From positions 124,001 through 188,000 of the forward strand of contig JAIXXF010000001.1 of assembly GCA_027490925.1 (NCBI GenBank): DNA of 64,000 nt, in the 5' to 3' direction. The first letter of the stretch is position 1; each line of letters opens with the position of its first letter. The stretch comes from Comamonadaceae bacterium (GTDB lineage: Bacteria; Pseudomonadota; Gammaproteobacteria; Burkholderiales; Burkholderiaceae_C). The position numbers were made by a program, and so were the translations under genes. A model generated the notes under the pieces. The model searched no databases. It worked only from the letters and a program-made list of their open reading frames with translations, and had not been told where the DNA came from. Below, piece after piece: positions 47,041-64,000 of the stretch.

Positions 47041-47074
47041 TTTGTCTTGGACAAACTCGCAAACGCGGTATATT
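47041..47074 (+). promoter_or_regulatory. Promoter and operator of the Rrf2-HiPIP cluster
   Basis: A -35 TTGGAC (47047-47052), a 16-bp spacer and a -10 TATATT (47069-47074) form a good sigma-70 promoter. A perfect palindrome TTTGTC-TTG-GACAAA (47041-47055) overlaps the -35. The predicted start of transcription is at about 47081, the start codon itself. Fourteen bases of this site recur upstream of the LitR-like gene. Confidence 0.7.
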
Positions 47075-47080
47075 TTGTCC

Positions 47081-47635
47081 ATGCGAATTTCCATGAAAGC
47101 CCGAATGGCCGTGGCGGCGATGGTGGACCTGGCCGCTTACAGCGACCACACCAACATCACCATCCGGAGCATTGCCGACCGGCACCAGGTGAGCTTCGCT
47201 TACCTTGAGCAGGTGTTCTGTGTGCTGCGCCGCCAGGGCCTCGTGCGGTCAGCGCGCGGGCCAGGCGGGGGCTACACCCTCGGCCGCCCCGCCACCGACA
47301 TCACCGTGGCCGATATCCTGTCGGTGATGGAGCCGCCGCTGCCGTCGGTCCGCACGCGCCATGAAGGCGCGATCGACCGCCCCGACGCGGACGACGACCA
47401 CGGCCCCGAGCGCATGGGCGACGCCCTGTGGCAGTCGTTTGACGCCTTTGTCCAGAGCTATTTGGCCAGCGTGAGTTTGGAGTCGCTGGCCTGCAAGCTG
47501 CGGCCCGAAGCACCCCAGGTGGTGGCCAAGCCGTATTCCCTCAACAAAGGCATCGCCAAGCGCAAACCAATGGAGGTGCTGCGCCCGCGCGCGCCCAGCT
47601 TCGTTTTTGCCCTCGGTGCCGACCCGGTGGCCTGA
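47081..47635 (+). CDS. Rrf2 family transcriptional regulator without Fe-S cysteines
   Basis: This 184-residue protein has the Rrf2/IscR winged helix at the N-terminus (MRISMKARMAVAAMVDLA, SIADRHQVSFAYLEQVF, GLVRSARGPGGGYTLGR). The region that carries three cluster cysteines in IscR (after ILSVMEPP) has none here, so it cannot bind a [2Fe-2S] centre in the IscR way. The C-terminal ~60 residues are an unusual extension. It precedes the HiPIP gene by 95 bp and probably controls it. The message may be leaderless. Confidence 0.85.
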   Translation: MRISMKARMAVAAMVDLAAYSDHTNITIRSIADRHQVSFAYLEQVFCVLRRQGLVRSARGPGGGYTLGRPATDITVADILSVMEPPLPSVRTRHEGAIDRPDADDDHGPERMGDALWQSFDAFVQSYLASVSLESLACKLRPEAPQVVAKPYSLNKGIAKRKPMEVLRPRAPSFVFALGADPVA

Positions 47636-47730: not shown

Positions 47731-48075
47731 ATGAACGATCGCACCCCCACCACCCTGTCTAACAGTAGCCCATCCACCCGCCGCGTGTTCATGCTGCACG
47801 CGCTGGCCGGTGCCGGTGCCGCCGTGTGGGCCACCCAAGCCGAGGCCCAAGCCGCTTTGGCCGAGACCGACGCCCAAGCCGTGGCGCTGGGCTACAAGGC
47901 CGACACCACCAAGGTGGACAAGGCCAAATACCCCAAGCATGCCGCCACCCAGCTGTGCAACAACTGCGCGCTGTACGCGGGCAAACCCACCGACGCCGCC
48001 GCGGCTTGCCCCCTGTTCCCCGGCAAGCTGGTGGCCGGTAAAGGCTGGTGCTCGGCCTGGGCCAAGAAGGGCTGA
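47731..48075 (+). CDS. High-potential iron-sulphur protein (HiPIP), Tat-exported
   Basis: This 114-residue precursor has a twin-arginine signal (STRRVFMLHALAG, R17-R18; cleavage near residue 40). The mature domain has four cysteines, C76, C79, C93 and C107, in the HiPIP pattern that holds one [4Fe-4S] cluster. HiPIPs carry electrons in the periplasm between the bc1 complex and terminal oxidases or photosynthetic reaction centres. A good AGGAGA site precedes the ATG. The stop overlaps the next gene start as TGATG. Confidence 0.94.
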   Translation: MNDRTPTTLSNSSPSTRRVFMLHALAGAGAAVWATQAEAQAALAETDAQAVALGYKADTTKVDKAKYPKHAATQLCNNCALYAGKPTDAAAACPLFPGKLVAGKGWCSAWAKKG

Positions 48076-49319
48076 TGCCCAGCTTGGGCAGCGGCCGGGC
48101 ATTGGCCCGGCCCCCAATGACCCACCCGGTGGTCGAGGTGGCGGGCGCTGGACCTGCCCGCGCCAGCAGCGCTTGGATGCCAGCGATGGCGACACCGCCA
48201 CCGTCGGACGCACCCAGTGGCACGGGTGCTGCAAGCACAGGCCGCGCCGTCGCTTCTGCGGGCAACGCCAACCCCGGCTCGACGGGTCATAACACCCCCG
48301 CGGCACGGGTCCAACTCGCTCTGCGTGATGCAACGCCCCGACCCGGTCAGGCCACACCCCGGCCGGGTGAGGCCATCTCGCCCGAGGGCGAAGCAGCCCT
48401 CACCGTGTTGTACGACGGCGCTTGCCCCCTGTGCCAGCGCGAGATCGCGTGGTACCGCGAACTGCCCGCGTCGTGCCCCGTGGCGTGGCTGGACGTCAAC
48501 GACGCACAGGCGCTGTCAGTGGACGACGCCACCCGTTCGCGCTACCTGTCGCGTTTCCATGTGCGGCGGGCCAACGGGGAAACCCTCAGCGGCGCGGCCG
48601 CTTTCGTGGCGCTGTGGCTCACGCTGCCGGGCTGGCGCTGGCTGGGCCGTGTGGGCCGCCTGCCTTGGGTGACCCCGCTGTTGGAGCTCATGTACCGCGG
48701 CTTCCTGCCCCTGCGGCCCCGCCTGCAGCGCGTGGCCCACGCGCTCGCCACACCACACATCCCGGCCGCGCTGGTGGCCGACCTGCGGTCAGACCACGCG
48801 GGCGAAACCGGCGCGGTTTACATCTACCGGGGGGTGCTGGCTCTGGCGCGCGACCCCGGTCTGCGTGCCTTTGCCACCCACCACCTCGCTACCGAGCAAC
48901 GCCACCTTGACCAAGTGGCCGCTGTGCTGCCCGCCTGGCGGCGCAGCTGGTGCCTGCCCGCCTGGCGCGTGGCCGGGTTCCTGACCGGTGCCTTGCCCGC
49001 GCTCTTTGGCCCCCGGGCGGTGTACGCCACCGTTCACGCGGTGGAAACCTTTGTCGATCGCCACTACCAACAGCAGATCGACCGCCTGGACGGGCTGGCG
49101 CACACAGCGTCGCCGCGCCCGGGCGCTGGCACGGGGGAGGGCGCGGACCGCTGGGCCGACCTGCGCGCCCTGCTGGTCGCCTGCCAGCAAGACGAACGCC
49201 AGCACCGCGACGAGGCGCTGGCATTGCAAGCCGGGCCGGTGGGCGTCTTCACGCGCGCATGGTGTGCGCTGGTCGGCACCGGCTCTGCGGCGGCGGTGCA
49301 CCTCGCCCGGCGGCTCTGA
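48075..49319 (+). CDS. Fusion of DCC/DUF393 thiol-redox domain and COQ7-type di-iron hydroxylase
   Basis: This 414-residue protein begins with a ~100-residue low-complexity Pro/Ala/Gly region. A DUF393 (DCC) domain follows, with LYDGACPLCQREIAWYR. The C-terminal half is a COQ7-like ferritin-fold hydroxylase with all di-iron ligands: DHAGETGA, EQRHLDQ, HAVETFVDRHY and DERQHRDEA. COQ7 hydroxylates demethoxyubiquinone in the last steps of ubiquinone synthesis. The start at 48075 is set by overlap with the HiPIP stop; translation could also begin later in the low-complexity part. Confidence 0.85.
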   Translation: MPSLGSGRALARPPMTHPVVEVAGAGPARASSAWMPAMATPPPSDAPSGTGAASTGRAVASAGNANPGSTGHNTPAARVQLALRDATPRPGQATPRPGEAISPEGEAALTVLYDGACPLCQREIAWYRELPASCPVAWLDVNDAQALSVDDATRSRYLSRFHVRRANGETLSGAAAFVALWLTLPGWRWLGRVGRLPWVTPLLELMYRGFLPLRPRLQRVAHALATPHIPAALVADLRSDHAGETGAVYIYRGVLALARDPGLRAFATHHLATEQRHLDQVAAVLPAWRRSWCLPAWRVAGFLTGALPALFGPRAVYATVHAVETFVDRHYQQQIDRLDGLAHTASPRPGAGTGEGADRWADLRALLVACQQDERQHRDEALALQAGPVGVFTRAWCALVGTGSAAAVHLARRL

Positions 49320-50000: not shown

Positions 50001-51062
50001 ATGGACCCCATCGCTGCCGCCGACGCCACCAACGTCATGGCCCCCCAGGCCGACGCGCTCCCGGCGCGCCGACAGCGGGTAATGTTGCTGGGCGCCACCG
50101 GCACCATCGGCCAGGCCACGCTGCAGGCCCTGCTCGCGCGCGGCCACGAGGTGGTGTGCCTGGTGCGGCCACACCCGAACGCCCAGGCCGCCGCCGACCC
50201 CGGACCGGCCGCGCTCGCCGAACGTTTTCAAGGGGCCGAGGTGCGTTTCGGTGCGGTGACCGACCCGGTCTCATTGGCGCGCGACGGTTTTCGCGGTGAG
50301 CGCTTCGACGTGCTGGTTTCGTGCCTCGCGTCGCGCACCGGTACCCCACGCGACGCGTGGGCGGTCGACCACCAAGCCCACCTGCACGCACTGGCCGCCG
50401 CCCAGCAGGCTGGGGTGCGGCACATGGTGCTGCTCTCGGCCATTTGTGTGCAAAAGCCGCTGCTGGCTTTTCAGCACGCCAAGCTCGCGTTTGAGCGTGC
50501 GCTGATCGGCTCGGGGCTGGGCTACAGCATCGTGCGGCCCACCGCGTTCTTCAAATCGCTGTCGGGTCAGGTGGAGCGGGTACGCCGAGGGCGGCCGTTC
50601 CTGGTGTTCGGCCACGGCCGCTTGACGGCCTGTCTGCCCATCAGCGATGCCGACCTCGGCGCGTTCATCGCCCGTTGTGTGGACGACCCGGCCTGCCACC
50701 AGCGGGTGTTGCCCATCGGCGGCCCGGGGCCCGCCATCACCCCACTGGCGCAGGCCGAGCGGCTGTGCGCCCTGCTGGGCCAGCCGCTGCGGGTGCGCCA
50801 TGTGCCCGTGGGCCTGCTGGACGCCATCGTGGCGGTGCTGGCGGTGTTGGGCCGGTGGTTTCCACGGCTGGCCGACAAGGCCGAGCTGGCCCGCATCGGT
50901 CGCTACTACGCGACCGAGTCCATGTTGGTGTGGGACCCGGAAACCGGTCGGTACGACGCCGACGCCACCCCGCGCACCGGCCAGGACACCCTGTGGGACC
51001 ACTACGCGGCGCTGGCCCGAGGGGCCACCCCGCCCGACCGCGGCGACCACGCCGTGTTCTGA
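50001..51062 (+). CDS. BciA-like divinyl (proto)chlorophyllide 8-vinyl-reductase / NAD(P)-binding protein
   Basis: This 353-residue NAD(P)H-binding protein of the atypical SDR type has the nucleotide motif LLGATGTIGQATLQALL near residue 28. It strongly recalls BciA, which reduces the C8 vinyl group in bacteriochlorophyll synthesis. BciA-like segments are VSCLASRTGTPRDAWAVDH, LLSAICVQKPLLAFQHAKLAFE, IVRPTAFFKSLSGQV and LPIGGPGPAITP. No other bch, crt or puf gene is in the window, so either the phototrophy cluster is elsewhere or the protein now reduces another tetrapyrrole-like or unrelated substrate. Confidence 0.82.
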   Translation: MDPIAAADATNVMAPQADALPARRQRVMLLGATGTIGQATLQALLARGHEVVCLVRPHPNAQAAADPGPAALAERFQGAEVRFGAVTDPVSLARDGFRGERFDVLVSCLASRTGTPRDAWAVDHQAHLHALAAAQQAGVRHMVLLSAICVQKPLLAFQHAKLAFERALIGSGLGYSIVRPTAFFKSLSGQVERVRRGRPFLVFGHGRLTACLPISDADLGAFIARCVDDPACHQRVLPIGGPGPAITPLAQAERLCALLGQPLRVRHVPVGLLDAIVAVLAVLGRWFPRLADKAELARIGRYYATESMLVWDPETGRYDADATPRTGQDTLWDHYAALARGATPPDRGDHAVF

Positions 51063-55746: not shown

Positions 55747-56535
55747 TCATAGGCCGGTGAACTTGCGGGTGAGCGGGAAGTACAGGCGGTAAGGCAGCAG
55801 GCGCATGAACTTCAGCCAGCGGGTGAAGCGCTTGGGGAAATGGATGTCGAAGTCGCCGTCGGCCCAGCCCTGCAAGATGGCGCTGGCGGCTTGCTCGGGC
55901 GTGAGCAGCGCGGGCATCTTGAAGTCGTTCTGCGCGGTGAGCGGGGTTTCCACAAAGCCGGGGTTGATCACGCTCACGCCCACACCGGCGTCCTGCAAAT
56001 CCATGTACAGGGTTTCGGCCAAGTTGATGAGCGCGGCCTTGGTGGGCCCGTAGGCCAGGCTCTTGGGCAGGCCGCTGAAGCCGGCCACGCTGCTCACCAG
56101 GCTGATGTGGCCCAGACCGTCGGCGCGGGTCTTGGCACGGGCCAGCAGGTGGGGCAGTACCGCGTCCAGAAGGTACAGCGCGCCGAGGTAGTTGACCTGC
56201 TGGTGCTTGACCATTTCTGCCAGGTTGTAGGCGGTGGCGCGCTGCTCGGCGTAGTGGCCCGCACAGTACATGACCCGGTCCAGCCCGTGCTGGGCGATCA
56301 GGCTGGACGCGGCGGCGGCCACCGCGGCGGGGTTCGACGCGTCCAGCCGCAGGGCGATGGCCCCTGGGTGCTGCGCGACGAAGGCGTCCAGTGCCGCCTG
56401 GTTGCGGGCCGAAACCACCACCTTGGCGCCGCGCGCGTGCAATGCCGACGCGGTGGCCCGGCCAATGCCGGTGGACGCGCCCACCAGCCAGACGGTGAGG
56501 CCGCGCCAGTCGGTCACGCCAGTGTTGAATCCCAT
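55747..56535 (-). CDS. SDR family NAD(P)-dependent oxidoreductase
   Basis: This 262-residue short-chain dehydrogenase has the cofactor motif GASTGIGRA near residue 20, the catalytic Ser in SLVSSVAGFSG and Tyr/Lys in YGPTK. Its substrate is unknown. Relatives occupy the same place in light- or singlet-oxygen-induced lipid clusters of other proteobacteria. The gap to the upstream DUF3833 gene (182 bp) holds repeat copy 6, so a separate promoter is possible. Confidence 0.92.
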   Translation of the reverse strand: MGFNTGVTDWRGLTVWLVGASTGIGRATASALHARGAKVVVSARNQAALDAFVAQHPGAIALRLDASNPAAVAAAASSLIAQHGLDRVMYCAGHYAEQRATAYNLAEMVKHQQVNYLGALYLLDAVLPHLLARAKTRADGLGHISLVSSVAGFSGLPKSLAYGPTKAALINLAETLYMDLQDAGVGVSVINPGFVETPLTAQNDFKMPALLTPEQAASAILQGWADGDFDIHFPKRFTRWLKFMRLLPYRLYFPLTRKFTGL

Positions 56536-56556
56536 GGGGTCTCCCGTTTGCTCATG

Positions 56557-56602
56557 TTTTTATAGCTAAAAATCCAGTATTGACTTGGGCTATAGCCGAA
56601 AT
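56557..56602 (-). repeat. Dispersed Comamonadaceae-type intergenic repeat, copy 6
   Basis: On the minus strand: ATTTCGGCTATAGCCCAAGTC followed by GGATTTTTAGCTATAAAAA. It is the shortest copy and closest to copy 2. It splits the operon between DUF3833 and SDR. Confidence 0.55.
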
Positions 56603-56717
56603 GGATTTCAAAAAGCCTTGGATGGCGGCCCCGACCTGCCCGGCAGGCCGTTTTGGCCCCCGATCGGTGCAGCCGGTGGATGCGGGGCCCGCGTCGCCGC
56701 GGTGCTTTCCGCGCCGG

Positions 56718-57266
56718 TCAGCGTTTGGTGAACGACAGGGTCACTTCGCCCAGCGTCACGCCGTACTTGCTCATCGTGGCTTTGTTCAGCATGACCTTGT
56801 CGGTGATGAGGTACATCCAGTCGTCGAACTGCACCTCGATCAGGCGGTCGTCCACCGGCAGCGACAAGGTGTAGTTCCAGTGCAAAGTGTTGCCGCTTTC
56901 CACGCCAACGGCTTCGCCCACCACGTCGTCGGCGCGGCCGATGTAGCGCCCCTCGCCGGTGCGCTTGAGGCGCCAGATGCGGCGCTGTTTGGTGCCATCG
57001 GAGAAGGTGAAGTCTTCGTTCAGCACGCCTTCTTCGGCGCCCGGCTCGCCTTTCCAGGTGCACGTCATCAGCACGGTGAAGCGTTTGACCACCGCGCCCG
57101 AGCGGTCGGTGAACACGCCGTAGGCGTCCAGCGTGCCGTTGAAGTACTTGCGCAGATCGAGCTTGGGTTTTTCGTTGGCGTAATCGGCCGGTTTCGGGCC
57201 AGCGCAACCGACCAGGGCCAGCGCCGAACTGGCGGCCACCACACCCAGCCATTGACGTTTGTTCAT
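56718..57266 (-). CDS. DUF3833 family lipoprotein
   Basis: This 182-residue protein has a lipoprotein signal (MNKRQWLGVVAASSALALVGC, Cys at 21) and the DUF3833 body with YFNGTLDAYGVFTDRSG, WKRTG-like repeats and DRLIEVQFDDWMYLI. It should be anchored in the membrane facing the periplasm. DUF3833 proteins are found with Cfa, DUF1365 and CHI-like genes in photo-oxidative stress clusters. The start overlaps the MFS stop (ATGA). Confidence 0.9.
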   Translation of the reverse strand: MNKRQWLGVVAASSALALVGCAGPKPADYANEKPKLDLRKYFNGTLDAYGVFTDRSGAVVKRFTVLMTCTWKGEPGAEEGVLNEDFTFSDGTKQRRIWRLKRTGEGRYIGRADDVVGEAVGVESGNTLHWNYTLSLPVDDRLIEVQFDDWMYLITDKVMLNKATMSKYGVTLGEVTLSFTKR

Positions 57267-58621
57267 GATGACTCCTTCAAAGCTTTGGGAACCGCCGTTG
57301 ACGCCGGTGCGCGGATGACCAGCCCGTACAGGGCCAGGGCCGCCGCCAGTTTAAGGGCGCAGGGCAGGCCGCAGTAGGCCCACACCAGCGCTTGCAGCGC
57401 GTCGGGATCGGTGGTGCCTGGCGAGTAGCCAAACAGCCCCAGCAACGGCAACGCCAGGCCAGCCGCCAGCGCCAGATTCAGCTTGGTGGCGAAGTTCCAC
57501 CAGCCAAAATACACCCCGGTGATGGACGGGTTGGTGGCTCGGTCGGACCCCGGCTCGCCCGGTGCGTTGGCGATCACCCCGGCCAGCATCGCGCCGGGCA
57601 ACGCCAGGTCGGTGCCGAGCGCCACGCCGGAGAGCACACACACCACCAGAAACTGCACCGCGTCGCCCGCGCCCAGTTGCGACACCCAGACGAACACCGC
57701 GATCGACTGCACCATGCCCAGCAACCAGCAACGCGCCAACCCGAGCTTGGCCACCAGCTTCAGCCACAGCGGGATGGACAGCGCCGCGACCAGAAAATAG
57801 CTGCCCAGGAAGGCCGGCTCCATGGCCTTGGGCGCTTGCAGACGGTCCTGGATGAAAAACAGCACCAGCGTGGCGGGCACGGCACTGGCAATGCCATTGA
57901 GCATGAACACCGCGAGCAGGCGTTTGAAGGCCGCGTCGCGGAATGGCAGCCAGGTGCTGGGGGCGGCGTGTCCCTCGGCCAGCTGCGGGCCACGGCTGGC
58001 GGCGCTGGGCCGCCCGGAGCGCTGCCAGGCCCACCAGCCTGCGGCCAGCGCCACCACAAACACCGCCACCGTGGCGGGCAGGCCAAAGGCCACCGGTGCG
58101 ACCGACGCGAGAACCACACCCGCCAGGCCCAGCCCTTCGCGCCAGGCCACCACCGTGCTGCGCTGGTGGTCGCTGCCGCCGTTGAGGTTTCCCAGCATCG
58201 CGCCCCAGGCCTGGTGCGCCACGCTGACCGCGCTGTAGGCGGCGTAGGTCAGCACCAGCAGTGCGCTGGCCCAGACCAGCAGCGCGTCGGGCGATCGGGT
58301 GGGTGGGAAAAACAGCAGGGTGAAGCCCCCCGCCAGGCCCACCGAGGCGATGCCCGCGAACAGCAGCACAGCGGCCAGCGCCTTGGCGAACAAGCGGTCC
58401 ACCCAGCGGCCGATCAGCGGGTCGATGAAGGCGTCGAGCAGGCGCGCGCCGAGCAGGATCGCCCCCAGCGTGGCCAGCGGCACACCGAATTCCCGCGAAT
58501 AGTGGTTGGGCAAGATCACATACAGCGGCAGCGCCACAAAGGCGAGCGGCAGGCCCATCAGCCCGTAGGCCAGACCGTTTTTCCAGCCGGGCTGCCAGCC
58601 CGCAGGCAGCTGCCCGCTCAC
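57263..58621 (-). CDS. MFS transporter, GPH/MelB-like
   Basis: This 452-residue inner-membrane transporter has 12 predicted helices. The N-terminus is NGLAYGLMGLPLAFVALPLYVILP. The loop DAFIDPLIGRWVDR is the conserved acid-rich segment of MelB-type (GPH) sugar/cation symporters. Here it is more likely to move a lipid or a small metabolite, given its lipid-operon context (inference). The GTG at 58621 overlaps the CHI stop (GTGA), which decides the start although the frame is open further upstream. Confidence 0.87.
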   Translation of the reverse strand: MSGQLPAGWQPGWKNGLAYGLMGLPLAFVALPLYVILPNHYSREFGVPLATLGAILLGARLLDAFIDPLIGRWVDRLFAKALAAVLLFAGIASVGLAGGFTLLFFPPTRSPDALLVWASALLVLTYAAYSAVSVAHQAWGAMLGNLNGGSDHQRSTVVAWREGLGLAGVVLASVAPVAFGLPATVAVFVVALAAGWWAWQRSGRPSAASRGPQLAEGHAAPSTWLPFRDAAFKRLLAVFMLNGIASAVPATLVLFFIQDRLQAPKAMEPAFLGSYFLVAALSIPLWLKLVAKLGLARCWLLGMVQSIAVFVWVSQLGAGDAVQFLVVCVLSGVALGTDLALPGAMLAGVIANAPGEPGSDRATNPSITGVYFGWWNFATKLNLALAAGLALPLLGLFGYSPGTTDPDALQALVWAYCGLPCALKLAAALALYGLVIRAPASTAVPKALKESS

Positions 58622-59250
58622 TGCGGTGCCTTGGCGAGCAGGGCGCTGCGCAGCGCAGGCTCCGAGGTGTTGGGCGACAGCCAGATGCCGAAGAAGCGGC
58701 GCGAGAACTCGGTGTCGCGCACCTCGGCCAGTGGCTGGCCGTTGTGCAAGAAGCGCGCGCCCACACCCGGGACGTGGATGCCCAGCAACTGGTCGCCCTT
58801 GCGGATGTTGGGAAACACCTCTTTCATTTTGGCCAGCCACTGCGCGCCCTGCGCGTCAGAAAACCCGCCTGCGCGCTTCATTTCGGTCAGCGACCGTTCA
58901 GCGATGTCGGCCCCGGCAAAGTCACGCTGGTAGTCCAGCGCCAGGGCGAAGGGCTGGCCGGTGAGGTCGGTCGGCTTGAACTGTGGGGACACCCACAGCC
59001 GTGCCTTGTACACGGCGAAGCCGAAATAGCGAAACAGGCTCTCACCGCTCAGTCGGGCATCGGCCACCACGGTGCTCACTGGGTGAGGCACCGCTGGGCC
59101 GGCCGCGTCTTGCGCCAGCGCGGCGGTGGTGTGCAGCGCGCCCAGCGCCACACAGGCGGCCAGGGTCAGCGCTTGCGCAGCGTGTACTGGACCACGTCGG
59201 TGCTCGATTTGGCGAACGCCGCTTCGCAATAAGCCAGGTAGAACTCCCAT
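58618..59250 (-). CDS. Chalcone isomerase-like periplasmic protein
   Basis: This protein of about 200 residues has a signal peptide (LTLAACVALGALHTTAALAQ) and a CHI-like fold: LSGESLFRYFGFAVYKARLWV, LDYQRDFAGADIAERSLTEMKR and GIWLSPNTSEPALRSALL. Bacterial CHI-like proteins may bind fatty acids rather than act as flavonoid enzymes. The start is uncertain: the ATG at 59250 lies 85 bp inside cfa, and a TTG at 59229 would give a more usual signal peptide. It overlaps cfa and the MFS gene, so coupling is tight. Confidence 0.8.
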   Translation of the reverse strand: MGVLPGLLRSGVRQIEHRRGPVHAAQALTLAACVALGALHTTAALAQDAAGPAVPHPVSTVVADARLSGESLFRYFGFAVYKARLWVSPQFKPTDLTGQPFALALDYQRDFAGADIAERSLTEMKRAGGFSDAQGAQWLAKMKEVFPNIRKGDQLLGIHVPGVGARFLHNGQPLAEVRDTEFSRRFFGIWLSPNTSEPALRSALLAKAPQ

Positions 59251-60398
59251 ATGCGCATGAACCTTTCGTCAAAACCCACTTGCAAGACCCGTTGCTTTTC
59301 GGCGAGGAACTTCTCGCGCCAGCGCTTGAGCGTCTCGGCGTAGTCCAGGCCGAAAGAAAACTCGTCCACCACGTCCAGCCCGGCCGCGTTCGCTTGCTTG
59401 CGGAACTCGCTCGGGCAGGGCAGGCAGCCCCCGGGAAAGATGTACTGCTGGATGAAGTCGGTGGACGCGATGTACTGGTCGAAGTACTTGTCGTCAATGA
59501 CGATGCTCTGAATGCAGGCCTTGCCGCCGGTCTTGAGCAGGCGCGAGATGGTCTGGAAGTAGTTGGGCCAGTACTCGCGGCCCACCGCCTCGACCATCTC
59601 GATGGAGCACACCGCATCGAAGGGGCCGTCGTTGATGTCGCGGTAGTCCTGCAAGCGCAGGTCGGCCCGCTCGGCCACGCCGAACTTGGCCATGCGGGCA
59701 TTGGCAAAGGCCAACTGCTCGTGGCTCAACGTGACCCCGGCGATGCGGGCGTTGAACTCGGTGGTGGCCATCTCGGCCAGCGCGCCCCAGCCGCAGCCGA
59801 TCTCCAGCACCCGTTCTCCTGGCTTCAGGTCCACCATGCGCAGCGCGCGGCGCACCTTGGCGTGTTGCGCGTCGCGCAGCGGTTTGTCCAAGTCGCCCTC
59901 GAACCAGGCCGACGAGTAGTTCATCGTGTCGTCCAGCCACAGCTCATAAAAGCTGTTGCCCAGGTCATAGTGGGCCTGGATGTTCTTCTGGCTGTTGGCT
60001 TTGGTGTTGCGGTTCAGCAGGTGCTTGATGCGGTAGATGAACCGGCCAATCCAGGTGCCGTAGATCACCTCTTCCACCTCGTGGCGGTTGCCCAGGAACA
60101 CCTTGAGCAGGTCGGTCAGGTTGGGTGTGGTCCAGTCGCCTGCGATGTAGGTCTCGGCAAATCCGATGTCGCCCGACTTCAGTGCCGCGCTGCAAACGTT
60201 CCAGTTCTTCAGCGTGAGGCTGGCCGCCGGGTGGTCGCCCGACAGATCGGCTTGGCCGAAGCGGTAGTGGCTGCCGTTGGGAAAGTGCACCGTCAGGCTG
60301 CCATGGCGCAGACGCTGCAGCAGCTTCACGGTGGCCCGTGCCGAGGCTGGCGCGCCTTGGATCAGGGCGATGGGGGAGGCGCTGGTGGTCGTGTTCAT
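59166..60398 (-). CDS. cfa: Cyclopropane-fatty-acyl-phospholipid synthase family methyltransferase
   Basis: This 410-residue SAM-dependent enzyme methylates double bonds of membrane phospholipid acyl chains. It has the lipid-binding N-terminal part, then QAHYDLGNSFYELWLDDTMNYSSAWF, the SAM motif VLEIGCGWGALAEMA and SIEMVEAVGREYW, all standard for Cfa. With the neighbouring FAD enzyme it may make a modified (for example methyl-branched or furan) fatty acid, as described for related operons in Rhodobacter. The start is at an ATG 43 bp after the DUF1365 stop. Confidence 0.93.
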   Translation of the reverse strand: MNTTTSASPIALIQGAPASARATVKLLQRLRHGSLTVHFPNGSHYRFGQADLSGDHPAASLTLKNWNVCSAALKSGDIGFAETYIAGDWTTPNLTDLLKVFLGNRHEVEEVIYGTWIGRFIYRIKHLLNRNTKANSQKNIQAHYDLGNSFYELWLDDTMNYSSAWFEGDLDKPLRDAQHAKVRRALRMVDLKPGERVLEIGCGWGALAEMATTEFNARIAGVTLSHEQLAFANARMAKFGVAERADLRLQDYRDINDGPFDAVCSIEMVEAVGREYWPNYFQTISRLLKTGGKACIQSIVIDDKYFDQYIASTDFIQQYIFPGGCLPCPSEFRKQANAAGLDVVDEFSFGLDYAETLKRWREKFLAEKQRVLQVGFDERFMRIWEFYLAYCEAAFAKSSTDVVQYTLRKR

Positions 60399-60441
60399 GG
60401 CGGGTGGACCTCGTCAGAAAGTGGGACGGTGAAGTATCGGG

Positions 60442-61248
60442 TCAGCGTGTGACAAAGTGCTCAGGCGGCGCTGGCTTGGAGACAAAGCGCACCCGCTTGA
60501 GCCACAGCTTGAGCGCCTGCCAGTGGATGCGGGCCATCACGCCCAGCGTCATGGCGGGGTAGCGCCACAGCGCGCGGCGCACGCTGGCAGCCGACACCGG
60601 CACCAGGTCGCCACTGACGCTGGTTTGCAGCAGCAGGCCGTTGTTGTCGTGGTAGTCGATCCGCACCACGGTTTTGCCTTGGCCATGGCGTTCGGTGCGC
60701 AAAAAGCGGAAGCGGTAGCCGCCTTCCACCTGGCAGAAGGGCGAGACGTGGAACACCTTGGTGGCTTGCAGCTCGGCGCCGTAGCGGGGCTGGTCCAGCA
60801 GGTAGCAATGGCGTTCACCGAAGGTGTTGTTCACCTCCACCACGATGCAGCGCAGGCCACCGTCGGGCCGGTGGCAGTACCAAAAACTCACCGGCTTGAA
60901 GGTGTAGCCCAGCACCCGCGGGTAGCAGTGCAGCCAGACCTCGCCGGTCGCGTCGGTCACGCCCTCGCGGGCCAGCAATTCGTCCAGCCACGCCAGTGCG
61001 CCGCCGTGTGAAGGGCCGCGGCCGTCGCCGTGGTCACAGTCAAAAAAACTCAGCCATCCTCTGCGGTTGTGGGACAGGTGGGCGTCGCCGTGCTGGGCCA
61101 ACGCCCGCATCGGCAGCATCAGGAAGTACGTGGGGTAGGCAAACGCGTTGCGTGCGGGCCGCACCCGGGTGTGCCGCACCTGGCCAAAGCCGAGCATCGC
61201 CCGCGCGGGGGCGACCGGGTTGGGGGCGTGGGTGGGCCGGTCGGGCAT
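60442..61248 (-). CDS. DUF1365 family protein
   Basis: This 268-residue protein has the DUF1365 hallmarks: VRHTRVRPARNAFAYPTYFLMLPM, YPRVLGYTFKPVSFWYCH, VVEVNNTFGERHCYLL and KVFHVSPFCQVEGGYRF. The family is always linked to Cfa and FAD amine-oxidase genes and is thought to act on lipids. There is no signal peptide. The ATG at 61248 shares one base with the stop of the upstream FAD gene (TGATG). Confidence 0.92.
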   Translation of the reverse strand: MPDRPTHAPNPVAPARAMLGFGQVRHTRVRPARNAFAYPTYFLMLPMRALAQHGDAHLSHNRRGWLSFFDCDHGDGRGPSHGGALAWLDELLAREGVTDATGEVWLHCYPRVLGYTFKPVSFWYCHRPDGGLRCIVVEVNNTFGERHCYLLDQPRYGAELQATKVFHVSPFCQVEGGYRFRFLRTERHGQGKTVVRIDYHDNNGLLLQTSVSGDLVPVSAASVRRALWRYPAMTLGVMARIHWQALKLWLKRVRFVSKPAPPEHFVTR

Positions 61249-62531
61249 CAGGTGTGGGGCAGCAGTTGCCTGGCGGCGGCCAAGCCGGACTTCAACCCGT
61301 CTTCGTGGAAGCCGTAGCCCAGCCACGCACCGCAGTAGTGGGTGTGTTGCTGGCCTTGGAGCGGGGCCATGTCGCCCTGCGCGCGGATCGCGGCGAGGTC
61401 AAAGACCGGGTGTGCGTAGTGGAATTCGCCCATCACGAATTTACGGTCGATCGGCCGCACTGGATTCAGCGACACCACCACCGGCTGTTCGAACGGAATG
61501 GGCTGCAGTTTGTTGATCAGGTAGTGCAGGCAGACCGCAGCGTGCTCGCGGTCGGTGCCTTGGGCGCGTTCGTAGTTCCAGGCCGCCCAGGCCAGTGGGC
61601 GCTCCGGCAAGACCGACGCGTCGGTGTGCAGCACGGCGGTGTTGGCGTGGTAGCGGATCGCGCCCAGCGTGGCCTGCTCTTGCGTGCTGGGGTCGCGCAG
61701 CAACGCCAGGGCCTGGTCGGAGTGGGTGGCGATCACCACTTTGTCAAAGCGCTCGGCGTGGCCATCGGTGACGATGCGCACGCCATCGGCGTCGCGCTCG
61801 ATCAGCCGCACCGGCGTGTTCAGGCGCTTGTCGGCGATCTTGGCGACGATTTTTTCCACATAGTGCTTGGCGCCGCCGCGCACGGTGAACCAGCGCGGCC
61901 GGTTGCTGACCTGGATCAGGCCGTGGTTGTGGCAGAACCGGATCATGGTGGCGATCGGGAATTGCAGCATCTGGTCGGTCGGGCAGCTCCAGATGCAACC
62001 GATCATGGGCAGGAAGTACCAGTCGCGGAACTCGTCGCTGAAGCGGTGCTGGCGCAAAAAGTCGCCCAGCGGTTGTTGCAGCTGGGCGTCTTGGTTGGCT
62101 TCAGCGATCTGCGTGGCCAGCTTGTTGAAGCGCAGCAGGTCGCGGATCATTTTCAAGAAGCGGCCGTTCAGCAGGTTGCTGCGCTGCGCGAACACGGTGT
62201 TCAGCGTGGAGCCGTTCCATTCCAGCGCCCGCCCTGGCCCAAAGGCATTGGGCACCTTGACCGAAAACGACATGTCCGAGTGCGCGGTCTCTACGCCCAG
62301 CTCAGCAAACAGGTTGATCAGGTGGGGGTAGGTGCGCTCGTTGTAGACCAGAAAGCCGGTGTCCACCCCGTGGGTTACGGGGCCACGCGGGGTGGGCAGG
62401 GTGATGTCCACCGTGTTGGTGTGGCCGCCGAAATAGCTGCCCGCTTCATACAGGGTGATGTCCGCCCGGCCGTGCAGGGTGTGGGCCACCGCGAGGCCAG
62501 AAATGCCAGAACCGACGATCGCGAGTTTCAT
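61248..62531 (-). CDS. FAD-dependent amine oxidase-like oxidoreductase, first gene of the photo-oxidative lipid operon
   Basis: This 427-residue flavoprotein has an N-terminal dinucleotide-binding motif (LAIVGSGISGLAVAHTL), the YEAGSYFGGHTNTV segment and a C-terminal FAD motif in CGAWLGYGFHEDGLKSG. It is the typical partner of DUF1365 and Cfa. The Rhodobacter relative is implicated in desaturation of methylated fatty acids (known from literature, not shown here). A 516-bp region upstream holds an ECF-type promoter and palindromes. Confidence 0.92.
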   Translation of the reverse strand: MKLAIVGSGISGLAVAHTLHGRADITLYEAGSYFGGHTNTVDITLPTPRGPVTHGVDTGFLVYNERTYPHLINLFAELGVETAHSDMSFSVKVPNAFGPGRALEWNGSTLNTVFAQRSNLLNGRFLKMIRDLLRFNKLATQIAEANQDAQLQQPLGDFLRQHRFSDEFRDWYFLPMIGCIWSCPTDQMLQFPIATMIRFCHNHGLIQVSNRPRWFTVRGGAKHYVEKIVAKIADKRLNTPVRLIERDADGVRIVTDGHAERFDKVVIATHSDQALALLRDPSTQEQATLGAIRYHANTAVLHTDASVLPERPLAWAAWNYERAQGTDREHAAVCLHYLINKLQPIPFEQPVVVSLNPVRPIDRKFVMGEFHYAHPVFDLAAIRAQGDMAPLQGQQHTHYCGAWLGYGFHEDGLKSGLAAARQLLPHT

Positions 62532-63047: not shown

Positions 63048-63668
63048 TCAGCGCTGGGCCAGCAGGCGCTCGACATCGGCCACGAAGGGCCGGTCTTGCG
63101 GGTTGGTTGCGCTGGGGTGGCTGAGCACGGTTTGGCCGTCGCGGCCGATGATGTATTTGTGGAAGTTCCAGCCCGGTGGTTGGCCGGTCTTGGCGGCGAG
63201 GGCTTTGTGCAGCGGGTTGGCGTCGGGGCCGACCACGCTGGTTTTGGCCAGCATCGGGAAGCGCACGCCGAAGGTGTTTTCGCAAAACGCGGCGATTTGG
63301 GCGTTGTTGCCGGGCTCCTGCGCACCGAAATTGTTCGCCGGGAACCCCAGCACCACCAGGCCCTTGTCTTTGTAACGGTCGTACAAAGCTTCCAGACCCT
63401 TGTACTGCCCGGTGTAACCGCAATAGCTTGCGGTGTTCACCACCACCACCACTTTGCCCGCGTACTGGCAGAGGTTTTGTGGCTTTTCGTCTTGCAAGCG
63501 GGCAAAGGTGTGTTGCAACACACCGCAGGCGGCGGGGGTGGCGGTGGGCGCAGCGGCCGAGCCCGTGGGGTTGGCGTGGGCGGGCACAGCCAGGCCGATC
63601 CACAAAACCAGGCCGACCCATGTGGCGGTGAGCGGGGCGGCCATCCGGGGGGGCAAGCGTCGCAGCAT
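63048..63668 (-). CDS. Exported glutathione peroxidase family protein
   Basis: This 206-residue thiol peroxidase has a signal peptide (WVGLVLWIGLAVPAHA). The catalytic cysteine is in NTASYCGYTGQYKGL, the partner glutamine in PANNFGAQEPG, and the tryptophan in WNFHKYIIG. It removes hydrogen or lipid peroxides in the periplasm, which fits the neighbouring lipid and light-stress genes. The ATG at 63668 or one eight codons later could be used. It is divergent from the LitR-like gene with a 107-bp control region. Confidence 0.93.
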   Translation of the reverse strand: MLRRLPPRMAAPLTATWVGLVLWIGLAVPAHANPTGSAAAPTATPAACGVLQHTFARLQDEKPQNLCQYAGKVVVVVNTASYCGYTGQYKGLEALYDRYKDKGLVVLGFPANNFGAQEPGNNAQIAAFCENTFGVRFPMLAKTSVVGPDANPLHKALAAKTGQPPGWNFHKYIIGRDGQTVLSHPSATNPQDRPFVADVERLLAQR

Positions 63669-63685: not shown

Positions 63686-63714
63686 TTGTGTGGGTGGTTT
63701 GTCCAAGACATAAT
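63686..63714 (+). promoter_or_regulatory. Promoter and operator of the LitR-like regulator
   Basis: A -35 TTGTGT (63686-63691), a 17-bp spacer and a -10 CATAAT (63709-63714) drive the regulator gene. The spacer contains TTTGTC-CAA-GACATA, 14 bases of which are the exact reverse complement of the operator at 47043-47056. A site in the spacer or over the -10 suits a MerR-type repressor acting on its own gene. Confidence 0.6.
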
Positions 63715-63775: not shown

Positions 63776-64000
63776 ATGACCAGCGCCGCCGCCAACATCG
63801 CTGCCGTCGAGCGGGACACCGGCATTGGCAAGGACACCTTGCGGGTGTGGGAGCGCCGCTACGGTTTCCCCAAACCTGAACGCGACGCGCTGGGCGAGCG
63901 GCTGTATCCGCACGACCAGATCGAACGGCTGCGGCTGGTGCGCCGCCTCATCGACAGTGGCCACCGCCCCGGCCAGGTGGTGGGGCTGCCGCACGACGCT
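63776..64000 (+). CDS. MerR family regulator, LitR/CarH-like (3' end missing)
   Basis: Only the first 75 residues are in the window. They show a MerR DNA-binding domain with IAAVERDTGIGKDTLRVWERRYGFPKPERD and RLYPHDQIERLRLVRRLIDSG. The WERRYGFP form is typical of MerR proteins fused to a B12-binding photosensor (LitR, CarH) that release DNA in light. The B12 domain would lie beyond the edge and cannot be confirmed. Its neighbours are exactly those of LitR loci in other proteobacteria. Confidence 0.8.
   Translation, partial: MTSAAANIAAVERDTGIGKDTLRVWERRYGFPKPERDALGERLYPHDQIERLRLVRRLIDSGHRPGQVVGLPHDA

Follow-up and report, generated by a model that had tools for sequence, protein, structure and literature searches.

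The locus studied here raises the question which regulator acts on the promoter of rrf2, and which other genes share this control. In the window, by which we mean the whole stretch of 64,000 nucleotides that was analyzed, rrf2 (47081..47635, plus strand) encodes a regulator of the Rrf2 family (PF02082, 1.3e-28). A perfect 6-3-6 palindrome, TTTGTC-TTG-GACAAA (TTTGTCTTGGACAAA, 47041..47055, no strand assigned), lies over its -35 region. The -35 element TTGGAC (47047..47052, plus strand) falls inside this operator and is followed, after a 16-bp spacer, by the -10 element TATATT (47069..47074, plus strand), both being predictions from sequence. This confirms the preliminary description, in which the palindrome overlaps the -35 of a good sigma-70 promoter. 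An extra half-site TTTGTC (47074..47079, plus strand) overlaps the -10 element and begins 33 bp after the operator start. Since only 6 bp separate the end of the -10 element from the ATG at 47081, transcription is expected to start at or next to this ATG, and the rrf2 message is probably leaderless or nearly so. On the same strand, HiPIP (47731..48075; PF01355, 2.2e-24) lies 3' of rrf2, together with a DCC1-like and COQ7 fusion (48048..49319; PF04134, PF03232) and the gene of a NAD(P)-binding protein (50013..51062; PF13460, 3.4e-19), which is called BciA in the preliminary description only. For all three, a transcript shared with rrf2 is putative.

A second copy of the operator, TTTGTCCAAGACATA (63698..63712, no strand assigned), lies between two divergent genes. 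One encodes a glutathione peroxidase (GPx; 63048..63668, minus strand; PF00255, 4.8e-33) and starts 29 bp from the operator. The other is litR (63776..64000 and running past the window, plus strand; 343 amino acids in the genome), which encodes a MerR-family regulator with B12-binding domains. This copy is the sole other site of the window within one mismatch of the palindrome, and it gives the inverted identity of 14 bases that had been described for positions 63697-63710 before a LitR/CarH-like gene and was found again here. The minus strand also carries a photo-oxidative-type cluster (55747..62531), of which the SDR, chalcone-isomerase-like, CFA/CMAS, DUF1365, and flavin amine oxidoreductase members were tested. 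Control of this lipid cluster was not supported in the form proposed earlier. In the window, the second operator copy stands in the GPx-litR gap, and a matrix scan detected no comparable operator before the lipid/oxidoreductase cluster, although in several relatives the oxidoreductase gene of this cluster begins directly at the operator.

The recurrence of 14 bases had been considered improbable by chance, at about 1 in 10^8 per pair of positions. This figure fails, since exact repeats of 14 nt and longer are common in the window (maximal ones: 107 inverted, 114 direct). Loose forms of the palindrome are without clear excess as well, both in the window, where three sites within two mismatches were found against 1.27 expected, a number reached by 15 of 100 shuffles, and in the own genome, where TTTGTCNNNGACAAA, which leaves the centre free, gave 9 sites within one mismatch and its reversed control 8, and TTTGTCYNRGACAAA, the Y-N-R form, gave 30 within two mismatches against 18. 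Exact TTTGTCNNNGACAAA occurs three times in the genome (none for the reversed pattern), one copy having a different centre (C45:130541). The shorter form TGTCYWRGACA occurs four times (reversed pattern, one), namely at rrf2, at litR, at iscR, and once within a listed open reading frame. The full 15-mer is not common in this genome: two exact copies are present in 2.76 Mb, one at rrf2 and one before iscR. It is comparative evidence, rather than repeat probability, that supports a shared operator.

For this comparison, 80 genomes of the family from 79 genera were surveyed, and stretches of 400 nt upstream of litR homologues were obtained from 34 genomes and upstream of iscR from 78 (two litR stretches were shorter, 113 and 355 nt, and one genome has two iscR copies). 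Genomes were counted as litR-positive if their match to the B12 domains was no weaker than 3e-37 (34 genomes). Some match at E <= 0.001 was obtained in 47 of the 80, and the best one below the cut, G045 (7.6e-18, in the HTH part), was counted as litR-negative. With at most two mismatches and any centre, the palindrome is present in 29 of the 33 litR upstreams from other genomes, and no such site was found in the litR upstreams of G012, G030, G043, and G059 (4/33). If the Y-N-R centre is required, 27 of the 33 remain, as G053 and G070 drop out. In 10 of the 33 upstreams the palindrome is doubled, with exactly 63 bp from one start to the other. In G036, G062, and G077, where GPx follows, the paired sites flank a TAATAT- or TAGTAT-like -10 element directed at GPx.

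Similar results were obtained without presupposing the palindrome. In an unbiased count of 4+4 dyads, TGTC-N5-CAAA ranked first, with 29 of 33 litR upstreams (300 nt) against none of 45 controls, which were the iscR upstreams from litR-lacking genomes. Five shuffles in two-base blocks gave at best 7 for any dyad, and every one of the top 15 dyads upstream of litR fits TTTGTC-N3-GACAAA. A matrix of 40 sites reads TTTGTC-Y-W-R-GACAAA, with a central A or T in 39 of them, and leans to this pattern because its sites were gathered with the two-mismatch and Y-N-R filter. Scored with this matrix, built from litR sites of other genomes, the window sites at 47041 and 63698 reach 28.3 and 24.3 bits, the next one 12.1. 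Exact Y-N-R sites occur in 19 of 34 litR-positive and 1 of 46 litR-negative genomes (Fisher 2e-8, where this and all further Fisher tests take genomes of different genera as independent, which related genomes are not fully). The single litR-negative case is G035, whose site falls within a HepT-like frame. Sites that are exact but have other centres were found in 4 of 34 against 8 of 46 genomes (Fisher 0.54), the one of G053 being located before litR.

The strongest partner of the rrf2 site is iscR. The exact 15-mer is located on another contig (C10:9098), 215 bp upstream of iscR in the iscR-iscS operon, where the palindrome again lies over TTGGAC and TATAGT follows after an 18-bp spacer. A Y-N-R site before iscR was found in 7 of 33 litR-positive genomes (four exact, two with one mismatch, one with two) against 0 of 45 litR-negative ones, corresponding to Fisher values of 0.0016 and, if the own genome is left out, 0.0038. 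The litR-negative genome G029 has a two-mismatch match upstream of iscR with another centre, and counting it changes the value to 0.009. With 26 of the 33 litR-positive genomes lacking a site before iscR, this branch of the putative regulon is patchy.

The rrf2 branch comprises two species only. In a scan of genome contigs that detects close relatives only, the metagenome-assembled genome PCRC01, a congener, gave the sole close orthologue of the window rrf2 (L191, 67% identical; the other two matches of the scan are 30–31% identical). No close orthologue was found in the other 79 family genomes (best identity 45%). In PCRC01, the flanks upstream of rrf2 align poorly, but TATTTGTCTTGGACAAA and the stretch from the -10 element to the ATG are retained, and the operator matches TTTGTCTTGGACAAA exactly. 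Its whole genome contains two sites within one mismatch of TTTGTCYNRGACAAA, at rrf2 and between GPx and litR, where TTTGTCCAGGACATA stands at the equivalent position. Upstream of its iscR, 13 of the 15 palindrome bases are retained. Thus the site is present, rather than missing, in the orthologous promoters that were found. Of the HiPIP gene after rrf2, PCRC01 (L191:3520-3700) retains a frame-broken remnant that lacks the cysteine-rich middle, next to an intact rrf2 and operator. The remaining 1.9 kb of the contig gave no COQ7 homologue, and BciA, judged by the spacing in the window, would fall beyond its end. These findings lend no support to the proposal that HiPIP, COQ7, and BciA are controlled together as one cluster. 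As PCRC01 keeps operator and rrf2 beside a HiPIP remnant, the conserved target appears to be rrf2 itself (and iscR), and not demonstrably the HiPIP-COQ7-BciA cluster. In the third congener, G054, which gave no litR match, no palindrome within three mismatches was found before iscR. Further down the iscR promoter, GACTG...CTATACTTGA is conserved in all three congeners, G054 included. One might guess that this stretch 3' of the palindrome is IscR's own site.

A wider search gave exact TTTGTCYNRGACAAA in 79 of 399 family genomes, with 13 matches for the reversed control pattern, and the contexts of all 75 sites listed were examined, mostly by matches to a fixed protein set. Among them, 34 lie in the intergenic region beside litR, together with GPx or the oxidoreductase where these were matched. 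Rrf2-family promoters account for 14 of the 75: seven sites before iscR, two before rrf2-HiPIP, and five, from as many species of a single genus, before another Rrf2 gene (L048, L239, L242, L244, L248). A site after uvrB, on a contig that ends before the expected place of iscR, would bring this number to 15. Behind the second Rrf2 gene, an sdhC-type gene was matched in L048 and L242, and no such match was obtained in the available DNA of L239, L244, and L248. Further sites were found at two lipocalin genes, at one photolyase gene, before two TerC genes, at three transglutaminase-like genes (L232 scanned; L231 and L234 by position and a similar start), ahead of a short open frame at a distance of 2.2 kb from litR (L046), as well as in or near four other reading frames (L022, L227, L236, L238).

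Three groups among the 75 deserve separate mention. Five sites lie within litR at codon 89 (L018, L209, L216, L217, L249); they come from five genera and encode LSKT or LSRT within a linker that varies elsewhere, so that either a constraint on the peptide or an internal operator could be envisioned. Five others coincide with MCP gene starts or lie close to them (L029, with uncertain start; L044, L045, L049, L250) and may point to light control of taxis. Three RVT-type sites from three species of one genus (L031, scanned, which adjoins a reverse-transcriptase gene; L241 and L246 by their shared flank) are probably part of a mobile element and non-regulatory.

What, then, binds the palindrome? 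The motif follows the presence and absence of litR and not that of IscR, which was found in 78 of the 80 genomes, and LitR is thus the likely binder. Its N-terminal part matches a MerR-type HTH (PF13411, 2.3e-12), and its C-terminal part matches the four-helix B12-binding_2 (PF02607, 9.7e-8) and B12-binding (PF02310, 4e-12) domains. ExHxxG, the letter form of the CarH cobalamin motif, is present as EPHGLG, and Wx9EH as WLRGDLQIFEEH. Across the 34 genomes, own included, Wx9EH was found in 28 and ExHxxG (with E or D allowed) in 26, where five genes were not recovered in the locus DNA and G012 showed neither motif in the frame read. In the available text of two papers on CarH, Wx9EH is the motif for sensing adenosyl-B12 (PMC8156234, PMC9304148). 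On the sequence features that were tested, LitR fits class I LitR/CarH, and its B12 pocket is apparently intact.

Several likenesses to class I CarH/LitR proteins, known from Thermus, Bacillus megaterium, and Myxococcus, support this assignment: the MerR-type HTH, both B12 domains, Wx9EH, and ExHxxG are shared. CarH-type proteins are described, in the parts of the papers available, as bound to DNA in darkness, in some cases over the -35, and as released by light (PMC8156234, PMC9304148, PMC4557120). The operator studied here likewise lies on the -35, and the TnnACA core of the CarH operators is present in the palindrome as TGGACA. However, the operators reported for CarH are tandem 11-bp direct repeats with this core, as far as the accessible text describes them (PMC8156234, PMC9304148), whereas our site is a 15-bp inverted repeat. 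TnnACA occurs once in the palindrome; an unsystematic look revealed a second ACA 11 bp further on by the litR sites L024, L032, L033, and L037, but not at rrf2. Targets differ as well: the text available on CarH class I names mainly carotenoid genes (PMC9758184), while here GPx and photo-oxidative genes, iscR, and other Rrf2 regulators are found in a phototrophic host, whose genome contains two adjacent Photo_RC genes.

Two other kinds of light-responsive regulator were compared as well. The class II LitR proteins of Pseudomonas (PplR1, PmlR2) are presented, in the portion of the source consulted, as repressors in the light response that act on photolyase and fatty-acid genes and others related to them (PMC9758184). 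Unlike the LitR studied here, which has both B12 domains, they keep one of the two and, according to the same portion, they act with a LOV partner and the consensus T(G/A)TACA-N12-TGTA(C/T)A (PMC9758184). TGTACA-N12-TGTACA is absent from the rrf2 and litR promoter stretches. VCA0056 of Vibrio cholerae, a MerR-like blue-light regulator whose operon also contains a photolyase gene, controls a photo-oxidative response. The text seen of its description contains neither an operator of this form nor a link to Rrf2 (PMC5241685), and kinship to our LitR is not assumed. In a literature search, six 13-base forms of the motif matched no paper, and the titles and abstract beginnings among the matches listed reported neither this operator nor LitR control of iscR; the search did not extend to regulon databases such as RegPrecise, and an earlier description is possible.

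Conserved sites, their position on predicted promoters, and their link to the presence of litR are directly established. Based on these and on the analogy to CarH, we consider it probable that the palindrome is a LitR/CarH-type operator through which litR/GPx, rrf2, and iscR would be repressed in the dark and relieved by light. In the dark, LitR carrying adenosyl-B12 would occupy TTTGTC-YWR-GACAAA over the -35 elements of rrf2 and iscR and in the GPx-litR region, where it would block RNA polymerase. Light would break the cobalt-carbon bond of adenosyl-B12 and LitR would release the DNA, upon which litR, the glutathione peroxidase gene, rrf2, and iscR would be expressed. One might speculate that this serves to keep iron-sulfur supply and electron-transfer regulators ready for light and its oxidative damage. 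LitR binding, repression, relief by light, and physiological purpose are each steps that we infer. Against LitR stands that several sites lie by genes without obvious link to light, within coding sequence, or by an RVT gene; weak points in this respect are those at the MCP, TerC, and transglutaminase-like genes.

It is unlikely that an Rrf2 protein, be it the window Rrf2 or IscR, binds the palindrome and thereby regulates itself as well as litR/GPx. Rrf2 proteins usually regulate themselves, rrf2-family genes follow two of the own genome's three promoter-region sites, and the 14 of 75 sites at such genes across the family fit the same idea. However, the motif follows litR although IscR is nearly universal, and the window Rrf2 has a close orthologue in one other species only, yet 29 of 33 litR upstreams carry the palindrome. 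In addition, an alignment with IscR revealed that the window Rrf2 lacks the three cysteines of the IscR cluster region, and the PCRC01 orthologue has one cysteine near it. We therefore rejected Rrf2 or IscR as main binder. As working criterion, an operator of IscR or Rrf2 was taken to stand at iscR wherever IscR exists, and the Y-N-R palindrome was found within two mismatches in 0 of 45 iscR upstreams of litR-negative genomes. IscR autoregulates the isc operon. Compared to this autoregulation, the palindrome occupies the same promoter but is linked to litR, lies 5' of the conserved stretch, and is absent from iscR promoters in the 45 litR-negative genomes. Thus, from the earlier suggestion that one regulator, LitR-like or Rrf2, controls both promoters, the shared regulator is well supported and LitR is favored, while Rrf2 is not.

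Quite unlikely is also another factor that always accompanies litR clusters and binds the palindrome. Any factor distributed like litR would fit the correlation, and the neighbors were compared with a fixed protein set only; however, 34 of the 75 sites listed lie in the intergenic region beside litR itself, and the region beside its own gene is the usual site of an autoregulator. That the sites reflect chance, or a strong sigma-70 promoter (-35 TTGGAC) with an accidental palindrome, is very improbable, because in spite of the common 14-base repeats in the window and the loose palindromes without clear excess, the operator is conserved to the base in PCRC01 amid poorly alignable flanks, the motif was recovered independently from litR upstreams by matrix and dyad count, and 79 of 399 genomes have an exact Y-N-R site, against 13 matches of the reversed pattern.

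If LitR is the binder, the palindrome reaches beyond the genes for which these photoreceptors are known. LitR/CarH proteins have mainly been associated with carotenoid and photolyase genes, and with a well-defined operator the regulon of the B12-type LitR in this large family could be read out. The suggested regulon extends to regulators of iron-sulfur cluster assembly, a process that is damaged by light and singlet oxygen. Consequently, light may directly control regulators of the iron-sulfur type in these bacteria. This offers a link of light sensing to iron-sulfur metabolism that can be tested directly, also in a photosynthetic host. The operator is found in three such settings, which are iscR in several genera, the Rrf2 gene by sdhC in one genus, and rrf2-HiPIP in this phototroph. 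We see an even chance that a B12 photoreceptor repressor directly gates iron-sulfur homeostasis, as a light-to-iron-sulfur switch placed before Rrf2-type regulators in at least three settings, with the switch at rrf2 outlasting HiPIP in the genus. As a further observation on the litR locus, the own genome encodes 3' of litR (L051:2548-5633) a photolyase-related protein (DPRP) and another protein with weak similarity to desaturases.
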